Source: Phycisphaerae bacterium (lineage in GTDB: Bacteria; Planctomycetota; Phycisphaerae; Sedimentisphaerales; UBA12454). From it: a stretch of DNA of 53,793 bases. The DNA lies in contig JAPLMW010000058.1 in the NCBI GenBank assembly GCA_026386845.1, positions 1 to 53,793 of the forward strand, read 5' to 3'. The notes below the pieces were generated by a model, which made no database searches, had not been told where the DNA came from, and saw only the letters and a program-made list of their open reading frames with translations. Every line of letters begins with the position of its first letter. The stretch's first letter is position 1. Positions 1,026 to 4,114 of the stretch are shown here, piece after piece. The position numbers and the translations under genes were made by a program.

Positions 1026-1075
1026 GAAAATGGAGCCAACAAGATTCGAACTTGCGACCTCTTGCATGCCATGCA
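1026..1075. repeat. attL-like direct repeat: 3' half of tRNA-Ala
   Basis: This 50-bp stretch is identical to 4065-4114. It holds the discriminator, 3' acceptor strand, T-arm, variable region and anticodon stem-loop of tRNA-Ala, and stops before the D-arm. It is therefore a dead partial copy. Together with the copy inside the intact tRNA it marks the two ends of an integrated element. Confidence 0.85.
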
Positions 1076-1176
1076 CTGACAAAAATGCTGTAATTCCCTA
1101 AGTTTCGCTAAAATCAACAATTATAAAATACGCAAACTCAATAAAATCTATTAAATACCTTTAAATATAGCCGCAA

Positions 1177-1195
1177 AAGTGTAGTAAAGTGTAGT
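1177..1195 (+). repeat. Paired AAGTGTAGT repeats, left end of element
   Basis: Two direct copies (1177-1185 and 1187-1195) are spaced 10 bp apart, about 100 bp inside the left att copy. The same nonamer occurs twice near the right end (3986-4006) in the same orientation. Position and pairing fit arm-type integrase binding sites. Confidence 0.55.
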
Positions 1196-1365
1196 CTCAT
1201 ATTAAGCAAAAAATCAAGAATTAAATGGCCGTATTCAATTTAGCCAGATCATACAATGCTTTAATTTCAAGCGCAAGGATTTTATTTTACATTTTATTAT
1301 TTTCCACGGGGATTAAGCTCCCAACCGCGTTGGAAACCATATGAGCCTGACGCCACAGCGGCAAT

Positions 1366-2304
1366 TTACTTTGTAAATAAACATTCTTGCCAATTAAGCT
1401 CACGGGTAATATAACAGCTATCATTTGTGATATCACAGTTCTTGCAGCCACATATGTGTGTTTTAACACCAAAATTACTTGCTATTTTCTTGATTTTTTC
1501 AAAAGCTGACTTCCTGACTTCCATGGGTAAAACTGCCCCTGTGGAATTTTTAATACCAATCGGCAAACGAACACTTTTTGAAAAAGGTTTCAAAATTTCA
1601 TTAAGAATATTTTTGTCGACAATATCCCTTTTGAGACTGGCAGTAATTGCAGACCGTAAAAAAAGAAAGCTGACAGCAGCTTCCCTGCACCCTGTCTCGG
1701 CAACCGCTGAAAACAAATTCTGCAATTGTTCACTTGTATCAGTAAGGCCATATACCATTGGGTCACAACGCGCGGACATTTTAACTCCAATTTTTACAAG
1801 TTTTTCAAGCTGTTTAAGTCTCTGATATACATTTGCAGCATTAGGTTCGAATATATTTAAGATTTTTTCATCTACAGATATCAATCCGATTTGGCCGGCT
1901 ATTTTTAAACTATGTTTTTTAAATAAATCAAAGATTTCTTCTGATATACTTCCTTTAGTAACAAATTGAACGCCTATATCATTTTCTAAAAGAATCTTCA
2001 TAACATCAAAAGTAATTTGCTGAACTTCAGGAACCAGTTGAAATGGGTCGCAAGAAGGACAAAAATAAACCGCTGTCGGTTTTTTTCGTTTTCGTTTAAT
2101 CTCGTTAGCAATCTCCTCTGCCATATTCTCGTAAACTTCGATCGAATTATCACCGGGATAAATTGAATAGCCTTTAGTGTAACAGTAAACGCAATTGTGA
2201 ACGCAACCTGCTGAAACATTCACAGTAGGCAAATTCGTCAGACATCGCAAACCAGATGGCGTAAGAAAGTTCGTTTTGCGTTGTTTGGAAATTACTCTTA
2301 GCAT
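1366..2304 (-). CDS. Radical SAM protein, spore-photoproduct-lyase-like
   Basis: This 312-residue protein has the radical SAM cluster motif CVHNCVYC (Cys34, Cys38, Cys41), which binds a 4Fe-4S cluster and cleaves S-adenosylmethionine. The stretch after it, with CYTKGY, a YFCPSCDPFQ segment and a VTKGS strand, matches the style of the SPL-like family, whose founder repairs UV-induced thymine dimers. A second cysteine group lies at the C-terminus (CGCKNC at about 285-290, plus Cys297 and Cys308) and could hold another cluster or zinc. I chose ATG 2304, which overlaps the upstream gene's stop by 7 bases (ATGCTAA) and implies coupled translation. Substrate unknown. Confidence 0.75.
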   Translation of the reverse strand: MLRVISKQRKTNFLTPSGLRCLTNLPTVNVSAGCVHNCVYCYTKGYSIYPGDNSIEVYENMAEEIANEIKRKRKKPTAVYFCPSCDPFQLVPEVQQITFDVMKILLENDIGVQFVTKGSISEEIFDLFKKHSLKIAGQIGLISVDEKILNIFEPNAANVYQRLKQLEKLVKIGVKMSARCDPMVYGLTDTSEQLQNLFSAVAETGCREAAVSFLFLRSAITASLKRDIVDKNILNEILKPFSKSVRLPIGIKNSTGAVLPMEVRKSAFEKIKKIASNFGVKTHICGCKNCDITNDSCYITRELNWQECLFTK

Positions 2305-3878
2305 ATTCGTTCCCCCGGCAATATATCCGCATATTTTTTGTCGCATAGCGCAAGTACTTGAGATGAATATTGTGAACCAATGTTAATCGCAGATACCGCA
2401 AGATTTAACTGATTGTCTTGGATATGCTTAACCATATAATTCACTGTAAGATCAACGTCCTCAATAACAGTTAGTTTGGCAATTTTTGACAACTTCCCAA
2501 TGATACTTTCGCCTTCGGAATTCAGCAAAGAATTTCCATTGAACTTCCTAACTGGATAAAAAAACATTTCCTCGTTGATATTTGTACCAAGGCAAAATGC
2601 TATCGCTTTATAGTAGTCTGTTAAAGAAAGCACTCTATACGCAAAACAATCCTCTGATAATCTGGTTTTGCCATTCGTATGGATGAGATTTTCCGGGTGA
2701 TAATCTTGTGGGTTCAGACAACAAACTGGATTATAATTTTTATTAATTATAGATTCTGGTAAATTCTTTTGGCCTGAGATATACCACAATCTTCCCTCAT
2801 CATCCGTTTTTTCAATGTCAAATATACTAAGATTATTGAGCAAGCGACACATTAGAATTATATCAAATTTAAAAGGTTCACACTGCTTGTTTATCCAGTC
2901 GATATAGTCTATCTGTCGATAATCTATATATGCCATATTCCCTCTGATTGGGCCTTTGGCAAAATGACGAACAGGATTCTGGACTCTTAAACCGATTAAG
3001 GAGCCATTCAAATACCAATTCTTTTTAACATCAGGGTCTTTGTTTGGAATATGTCTCCAGATATGCCTAAGCATAATACCACTGCCGCCGCCCAGATCAA
3101 CCACATTAATGTCACGTTTTTCTTTATTATTATTTGCCAACAAAGATTTGAGAAATGGATATATTGCAAATTCTGACAACAATTGTGCTCTCTGTTTACT
3201 TCTCGGATCAGATTTACGTGAAAATCCATTTGCAAATGATTCAACTAATGCAAAAGATTCGCCTCTATCATTGAGGCTTACCGCGGGATACACAAAAATA
3301 GAAAATTCAGGGTCATTAGATATTCGGTATTGACGATAATGGTAAAAAAGCCTATTGCCAGCAAAACATCTAACCATAATCAGAGGCAAATATTTGGGGT
3401 CTTCGTTAAAGGATTTTTTACCCAAACGTGCGAGAAGATAAGCAGGATTTCTGTGACTTGTTTTAGCTGCTGCTATGCCAGATTCCTTGCCATGCCAGCA
3501 TATAACAAAATTTTCCAGAGATAACAATTTATCCAGTAATACCCGAACATAGGATTCATTTCGATGATTTAACCATCTTGAAAGTAAAATAAAATATCTG
3601 TAACAATATTCTTTAATATAATCTGATTTAAAGCCAGATTTTACGTATGCGCCTCGTGCTTTTTCAAAACACAGAAAATAATCCTTCTCTGGTAAATTGT
3701 CTTTGATATTCCAGTATTCATCCCAACTCTGTTTTCTTATTTCTACCCTGCCATGCCAATCTATTTCTATAGCGGTAATTATATTTTGGGAAACAACCGC
3801 CTCGGCCAAATTGGCTTTAATATATTCTTGTACTAAACCTGACAAAGGATTAACAGGTGAATAATCGGAATCAGTCAT
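2298..3878 (-). CDS. Large protein with class I SAM-methyltransferase domain
   Basis: About 526 residues. A class I methyltransferase motif I (VVDLGGGSG, about residues 259-267) is followed by a strand-helix pattern and an acidic FDIILM segment as motif IV. The N-terminal half, about 250 residues, resembles nothing I recognise and may be the target-recognition part. I chose ATG 3878 because AGGA lies 5 bases upstream; the in-frame ATG at 3893 has no such site. Its stop overlaps the radical SAM gene, so the two products are probably made together. What it methylates, or whether it does, is unknown. Confidence 0.65.
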   Translation of the reverse strand: MTDSDYSPVNPLSGLVQEYIKANLAEAVVSQNIITAIEIDWHGRVEIRKQSWDEYWNIKDNLPEKDYFLCFEKARGAYVKSGFKSDYIKEYCYRYFILLSRWLNHRNESYVRVLLDKLLSLENFVICWHGKESGIAAAKTSHRNPAYLLARLGKKSFNEDPKYLPLIMVRCFAGNRLFYHYRQYRISNDPEFSIFVYPAVSLNDRGESFALVESFANGFSRKSDPRSKQRAQLLSEFAIYPFLKSLLANNNKEKRDINVVDLGGGSGIMLRHIWRHIPNKDPDVKKNWYLNGSLIGLRVQNPVRHFAKGPIRGNMAYIDYRQIDYIDWINKQCEPFKFDIILMCRLLNNLSIFDIEKTDDEGRLWYISGQKNLPESIINKNYNPVCCLNPQDYHPENLIHTNGKTRLSEDCFAYRVLSLTDYYKAIAFCLGTNINEEMFFYPVRKFNGNSLLNSEGESIIGKLSKIAKLTVIEDVDLTVNYMVKHIQDNQLNLAVSAINIGSQYSSQVLALCDKKYADILPGERIC

Positions 3879-3914
3879 TAGAATCCTAAACATAAATATC
3901 TGACAAATACATAA

Positions 3915-3942
3915 TTTATCGCATTATTTTCGTTTTTGTCAA
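3915..3942 (-). promoter_or_regulatory. Promoter of the element's two-gene operon
   Basis: On the minus strand a perfect TTGACA (3937-3942) is followed after 16 bases by GATAAA (3915-3920), or after 18 by TAAATT. It lies about 40 bases before the methyltransferase-like start and inside the right-hand AAGTGTAGT pair, so the element carries its own promoter. Confidence 0.5.
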
Positions 3943-3985
3943 AAGGAAAAATAGTGAGATGAATTTTGGTATAGATGGGTGTCAA

Positions 3986-4006
3986 AAGTGTAGTCATAAG
4001 TGTAGT
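3986..4006 (+). repeat. Paired AAGTGTAGT repeats, right end of element
   Basis: Copies at 3986-3994 and 3998-4006, 12 bp apart and about 60 bp inside the right att copy, match the left-end pair in sequence and orientation. They are candidate arm-type sites for a tyrosine integrase. Confidence 0.55.
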
Positions 4007-4064
4007 GTAACAACTGATTGAGATTGAAAGGAGTGCTTATAAGCCATTTGATTTCAATGGCATA

Positions 4065-4114
4065 GAAAATGGAGCCAACAAGATTCGAACTTGCGACCTC
4101 TTGCATGCCATGCA
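4065..4114. repeat. attR-like direct repeat inside tRNA-Ala
   Basis: This is the second perfect copy of the 50-bp repeat, embedded in the 3' two-thirds of the functional tRNA-Ala gene. Homology to the left copy ends at 4114, in the anticodon stem, a crossover region typical of tRNA-directed integrases. Confidence 0.85.

Follow-up and report, generated by a model that had tools for sequence, protein, structure and literature searches.

The contig JAPLMW010000058.1 of a Phycisphaerae bacterium (GenBank assembly GCA_026386845.1; Planctomycetota), analysed whole as a window of 53,793 nucleotides (contig C3 of a 2.4-Mb genome in 96 contigs), carries near one end a compact element lodged at a tRNA-Ala gene (Table 1). 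The element is bounded by an exact 50-bp direct repeat with a spacing of 3039 bp, one copy lying inside the intact tRNA-Ala(GGC) and the other being a partial copy of it, precisely as an earlier note made from the sequence of this window had described. Between the repeats lie two genes, both on the minus strand and overlapping by 7 bp, which code for a methyltransferase-like (MT) protein and for a radical S-adenosylmethionine (rSAM) protein resembling spore photoproduct lyase (SPL); the two-gene content claimed in the note was borne out, and Pfam and tblastn searches detected neither an integrase nor a remnant of one inside the element. Its GC content is 35%, as against 43% in the flanks. Just inside both ends we observed closely spaced pairs of AGTGTAGT in the same orientation, which the note had overlooked, and besides these two there is no close pair of this motif anywhere in the 2.4-Mb genome. 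Tyrosine integrases use such paired short direct repeats flanking the core as arm sites. Furthermore, a scan of about 9 kb downstream of each of the 41 tRNAs in the genome, or up to the contig end where that comes sooner, showed a duplicated 3' end for tRNA-Ala alone. The locus displays two of the features by which cis-mobilizable elements (CIMEs) are recognized, namely attL and attR direct repeats flanking the element, one of them inside the tRNA, and no genes for integration or transfer within it. Taken together, the sequence features show an element made up of attL and attR sites derived from the 3' half of tRNA-Ala, paired arm-type repeats and a single two-gene operon without a recombinase, and we consider it probable that the whole is a 3.04-kb non-autonomous, integrative CIME-like cassette carrying an SPL-like rSAM protein and its methyltransferase-like partner as cargo.

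Table 1. Features of the element and its predicted attachment sites (window positions).
Feature	Position	Strand	Remarks
tRNA-Ala(GGC), intact, predicted integration target	4070-4142	-	ARAGORN; Rfam RF00005, 66 bits
Predicted attL core, repeat copy within the tRNA, anticodon loop to 3' end	4065-4114	-	exact 50-bp repeat
Predicted attR core, the other exact repeat copy, from the 3' half of a partial tRNA-Ala	1026-1075	-	
Putative integrase arm-type pair AGTGTAGT-CATA-AGTGTAGT, tRNA side	3987-4006	+	
Putative integrase arm-type pair AGTGTAGT-AA-AGTGTAGT, far side	1178-1195	+	module common to att ends in L068, L069
531-aa MT protein P0001, family A1/A3	2298-3893	-	invariant DxGxG; Pfam methyltransferase matches below cut-off
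312-aa SPL-like rSAM protein, family A2/A4	1366-2304	-	C34-x3-C38-x2-C41, Y40, Y42, C85, C-terminal C285/C287/C297
Candidate sigma-70 promoter TTGACA-N18-TAAATT	3913-3942	-	weak; identical sequence in G008

A survey of 397 genomes of the class, in which the rSAM family was counted at >150 bits, recovered the MT protein in 22 genomes and the rSAM family in 39. The two genes stand side by side on the same strand in 19 of the 22 MT-bearing genomes; of the remaining three, one shows a fragment at a distance of 0.75 kb, and the other two could not be judged (a contig end and a run of Ns). One more pair occurs outside the class (L215; genomes and loci are designated by G and L numbers). In the 11 intact pairs, that of the window included, the genes overlap by 7 bp in eight, by 4 bp in one and by 91 bp in two. 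Both genes are under purifying selection wherever this could be computed (nonsynonymous to synonymous ratio, dN/dS, 0.08-0.18). The MT gene is broken or shortened beside an intact rSAM gene in five genomes (G008, G005, G034, G329, G226), and the rSAM gene is also found solo or behind an SPL-like gene with which it has a 4-bp overlap (L019, L214). The rSAM tree follows host families in part, with the MT partner scattered among its deep clades; in keeping with this scatter, the pair may be an old operon that has repeatedly lost its MT member. Thus, the view of the earlier note that the pair forms a unit is supported by its recurrence, but it needs to be qualified, as the rSAM gene often lacks the partner and the pair is not obligate. 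The note had also credited the element with its own promoter; one TTGACA/TAAATT site is indeed present and shared with G008, but the overall count of promoter-like sites, 15, is no excess over the 12.7 in shuffled sequences. In G002, from another genus, a truncated rSAM copy follows cysK and metY downstream of a copy of the tRNA-Ala 3' end (L022, 243-4450), a locus that is likely a decayed tandem element.

Using ARAGORN and a scan for T-arms, we observed the same architecture, each time without an integrase, at several other tRNA genes and at the transfer-messenger RNA (tmRNA) gene. In G018 (L020) 29-bp repeats of the tmRNA lie 3256 bp apart and enclose MT and rSAM; in G240 (L148) 43-bp repeats of tRNA-Val span 1146 bp with rSAM alone; in G077 (L150) 28-bp repeats of tRNA-Leu span 1763 bp with rSAM; and in G028 (L019) 43-bp repeats of tRNA-Met span 3328 bp with genes for DUF488, SPL-like and rSAM proteins, a second element of 5264 bp following in tandem. 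Neither of these two tRNA-Met-bounded elements (L019, 6695-15287) has an integrase. The cargo of the second comprises a further radical SAM protein, an ATPase and a methyltransferase-like protein of another kind; a relative of this last protein adjoins rSAM in L021. In G401 (L131) a TudS cassette of 1010 bp with a single gene comes after the tmRNA, ahead of an MT-rSAM cassette; both cassettes carry GCGGGAGTAATACGGGAG, and the right end of the TudS cassette resembles that of the G018 MT-rSAM element (71% over 178 bp). The lone gene of this tandem array, a TudS/2-thiouracil desulfurase (PF04463), sits between two copies of the tmRNA 3' end (758-1768). One-sided cases were found at tRNA-Ala (G008), tRNA-Gly (G372, G142), tRNA-Val (G211) and another tRNA end (G390), as well as at tRNA-Gly 3' ends in G180 and G231. 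The module at the right end of the window element also occurs at two att ends that have other cargo, with a match of 73% over 111 bp in G052 and of 89% over 46 bp in G024, and a search of 59 relatives for the AGTGTAGT arms returned these same two places, both att-like ends with other cargo and without an integrase nearby. The ends in question (L068, 6237-6480; L069, 4940-5080) have arm repeats that are the same as those of the window element; both adjoin a small zinc-ribbon-like coding end, and that in L068 also adjoins a tRNA 3' remnant. When 60 genomes of that family were searched for CGGGAG, the arm motif of the tmRNA elements, exact matches turned up in G401 only, and no helper integrase could be traced in them through this motif.

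The loci are enriched in nearby tRNA T-arms. Of 43 loci, 13 have a T-arm no more than 1 kb away, compared with none of 20 control loci, which come from the same class and hold related radical SAM genes of the PA0069 type (Fisher p 0.006). Counted by side, a same-strand T-arm within 1 kb is present on the upstream side of 9 and on the downstream side of 8 of the 43 loci, with about 0.35 expected in each case from the background of the same loci; the corresponding Poisson values (1.6e-10 and 4e-9) are optimistic, since related genomes are not fully independent. The scoring of adjacency and tRNA proximity across genomes, for which the earlier note had called, returned 19 of 22 and 13 of 43, respectively.

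Evidence for transfer comes from synonymous divergence (dS). Between G000 and G008, which belong to different genera and share the tRNA-Ala site, dS is 0.25 for rSAM as opposed to 1.13 and 1.32 for the flanking genes cca and hisS; between G018 and G401, again of different genera and both with the tmRNA site, it is 0.28 for rSAM and 0.38 for MT, with cca saturated (proportion of synonymous differences 0.77). The low divergence of the cargo against the high divergence of the flanks most likely means that the unit moved after the hosts had split, and the cassette accordingly appears, from these comparisons, to have passed between genera recently. The claim of the earlier note that the pair is a transferable unit gains support from this discordance and from the recurrent tRNA association, and neither of the outcomes it had named as telling against its reading was found: the pair is absent from the tRNA-Ala/CCA-gene site in the relatives G004, G006, G009 and G001, and it recurs elsewhere. 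An empty tRNA-Ala site with both sides intact could not be demonstrated in these relatives, in which the far flank is not syntenic. The tRNA-Ala beside the gene for the CCA-adding enzyme in G006 (L070), G009 (L073) and G012 (L071) marks an integration hotspot of the family, at which other genomes carry integrase-bearing or phage-like islands. We consider the mobility of the cassette well supported and hold the mobile-element part of our explanation with high confidence.

The alternative that best withstands these data is that the loci are leftovers of larger integrase-bearing islands after internal deletion, their small size being a product of decay. CIMEs are usually explained in this way (PMC5704250), elements with an integrase do occupy the tRNA-Ala site in G006 and G012, the MT gene is frequently disrupted (the five genomes listed above, G142 and G372), and in L146 (G142) an integrase N-terminal remnant, the only remnant found inside the elements, lies between tRNA-Gly and fragments of MT and rSAM. 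However, at four kinds of site besides tRNA-Ala (tmRNA, tRNA-Met, tRNA-Val and tRNA-Leu) the bounds fall exactly at the att sites around one intact operon with no integrase remnant, the same cargo moved recently between genera, with a dS of 0.25 set against 1.1-1.3, and the tandem TudS and MT-rSAM cassettes have a similar end module. We regard decay as a possible but doubtful account.

Turning to the cargo of the proposed cassette, the rSAM protein scores 52 bits against the Pfam radical SAM domain PF04055 (cut-off 29.5), and in its CX3CX2C motif C34 and C41 are invariant in the family and C38 is conserved in >90%. It passes the Pfam SPL model marginally (29.4 bits, cut-off 27) and falls far short of the NCBIfam equivalog TIGR04070 (28 bits, cut-off 400). 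Its best PDB match by sequence is SPL (E 0.014), as is its top Foldseek match (E 3e-7, TM 0.51, from a model of moderate confidence). SPL employs a cysteine as hydrogen donor and two tyrosines next to the cluster motif (PMC3742179), the residues used for comparison being Cys141 and Tyr97/Tyr99 in B. subtilis numbering. In the rSAM family Y40 and Y42 are invariant in 35 members and are spaced from the cluster cysteines as in SPL; residue 85, which a weak match aligns with SPL Cys140, is a cysteine in the clade of the window protein but a serine in most other members; and a C-terminal CxC...C triad is invariant. SPL-like genes adjoin rSAM in L019, L021, L153, L154 and L214, and TudS-like genes occur in or near L131, L153 and L154, neighbours that would point to nucleobase damage or thio-base chemistry. 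We tentatively suggest SPL-like nucleobase chemistry for the rSAM protein. As for its partner, D266, G270 and G272 of motif I are invariant in 11 members and G268 is conserved in >90%, in the manner of a glycine-rich SAM-binding motif, but the best match to a class I methyltransferase Pfam model reaches 15 bits against a cut-off of 27, with weak matches in relatives; the methyltransferase-like call of the earlier note has the DxGxG motif in its favour and no Pfam match above cut-off, and these residues weakly suggest a methyltransferase.

The pair might instead be dedicated to modification of tRNA or another RNA, such as a thio- or C-methyl change, rather than to repair of a DNA lesion. The TudS/2-thiouracil desulfurase genes in or near three loci fit this, given that the RudS enzymes of the TudS family remove tRNA 4-thiouridine (PMC11417400), and so does a methyltransferase-like partner. 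Nevertheless, the SPL-type active site suggests pyrimidine dimers, and neither protein matched a known RNA modification family, which leaves this alternative unlikely.

Returning to the non-autonomous cassette, we propose that another element would provide, in trans, a tyrosine recombinase that recombines the 50-bp core and uses the arm repeats, such that the cassette would excise and insert at tRNA 3' ends with regeneration of the intact tRNA. The SPL-like rSAM protein would then abstract a hydrogen from a nucleobase, with the product radical being quenched through Cys85 and Tyr42/Tyr40 as in SPL, and the translationally coupled MT-like protein would be its dedicated partner, recognizing or modifying its substrate. 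The target is likely a lesion or modification of a DNA or RNA base, and a nucleic-acid target common to both proteins is plausible. Several observations weigh against this proposal. With regard to mobility, no cognate integrase came to light, as the larger tyrosine recombinase loci of the genome, four in number, look Xer-like or partial and have no tRNA beside them, and excision of the element was not observed. With regard to the cargo, the alignment of Cys85 with the SPL cysteine hinges on gap placement, most of the wider family having Ser; no curated domain is assigned to any MT-like member, and a structure model of the MT-like protein built from one sequence is unusable (pLDDT 31). Moreover, outside the class rSAM is often a plain solo chromosomal gene, as in family f68, in many genera of which the phylum survey found it solo and without a tRNA link; there it may have a housekeeping role.

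An anti-phage or other defence unit on a small island, a role that the earlier note had raised, would accord with a patchy, mobile and frequently broken cargo and with the restriction-methylase genes near L141, L158 and L208. Yet these are three loci only, clustering in defence islands is not seen at most others, neither protein nor the neighbours gave a meaningful PADLOC match, the MT-like protein is absent from phage and plasmid collections and rSAM is a solo chromosomal gene across many f68 genera, so that we deem a defence function quite improbable. An origin from phages or plasmids was likewise rejected, the MT protein being unmatched in both collections, while the matches of rSAM in plasmids and viral contigs are all distant and of a generic radical SAM kind. 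That these are ordinary, vertically inherited genes beside a tRNA with a repeat born of chance tRNA duplication would suit the widespread, tRNA-unlinked rSAM genes of f68 and a tree that partly tracks host families, but is highly improbable in view of the exact repeat, the arm sites, the GC drop, the tRNA enrichment and the discordant dS, the enrichment and dS results contradicting it in this class.

Beyond the individual cassette, one may speculate, though we think it rather unlikely, that this Planctomycetota class harbors a cassette system in which tyrosine integrases act as helpers and move exchangeable cassettes of one to three genes (MT-rSAM, rSAM alone, SPL-rSAM-DUF488 and TudS, with shared arm and core modules) among tRNA and tmRNA 3' ends. 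If true, it would be integron-like, with tRNA genes as docking sites and nucleobase damage and thio-base chemistry as its cargo theme. Integrase-less tRNA islands are usually written off as wreckage; here a single gene family recurs as sole cargo at various tRNA and tmRNA sites, the ends are exact and the transfer between genera is recent, all of which makes trans-mobilized minimal cassettes directly testable. The work also identifies a two-protein SPL-like rSAM system in which the gene overlap and a triad of C-terminal cysteines are conserved. In a limited set of open-access papers we found neither a description of this two-protein unit nor any account of elements of 1-3 kb that repeatedly carry it as their only cargo at a number of tRNA and tmRNA genes.

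Outside the element, a tyrosine-recombinase C-terminal remnant lies just beyond its far end (619-930, plus strand; Pfam E 6e-6) and adjoins a decayed tRNA-Ser 3' end (961-984), so that the region has been struck more than once; the two are probably the trace of a second, older integrated element. Synteny of this tRNA-Ser remnant with the tRNA-Ser of G008 was considered and dropped, since the two are not in the same relative orientation. The rsmD coding sequence contains at 5480-5560 a palindromic repeat that keeps the reading frame and has CCCGTTAGAGA arms; the repeat is also present in rsmD of G008 and, on contig C63, in a recombinase gene that is interrupted.

Comparison with known systems places the cassette near, but apart from, several of them. 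The rSAM protein has its best sequence and fold match in SPL (PF20903, TIGR04070), with the CX3CX2C motif and two identically spaced tyrosines in common and, in this clade, Cys85 tentatively aligned to the catalytic cysteine; it differs in its 312-aa length, its score far below the equivalog cut-off, its extra C-terminal triad and its methyltransferase-like partner. The TIGR04470 (radical SAM mobile pair protein B, named for mobile pairs), PA0069 and Rv2578c families are likewise SPL-like radical SAM proteins, but membership in them was rejected (24.7, 80 and 67 bits under cut-offs of 410, 360 and 430, respectively). Like CALINs, clusters of integron cassettes lacking an integrase and moved in trans (PMC11389934), the cassettes described here would rely on an external integrase, but their sites are tRNA 3' ends with arm-type repeats rather than attC. 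There is also a likeness to CIMEs, a concept covering integrase-less elements (PMC5704250), and accretion islands, and to the integrase-less ssrA genomic islands of Dehalococcoides, bounded by tmRNA repeats (15 ssrA islands; PMC3146451): these have tRNA or tmRNA 3'-end repeats, lack an integrase, may occur in tandem and are presumed to be mobilized by their neighbours. The elements described here are distinguished by a size of mostly 1.0-3.3 kb around one operon, by their presence at several tRNA genes and by a single recurring cargo family.

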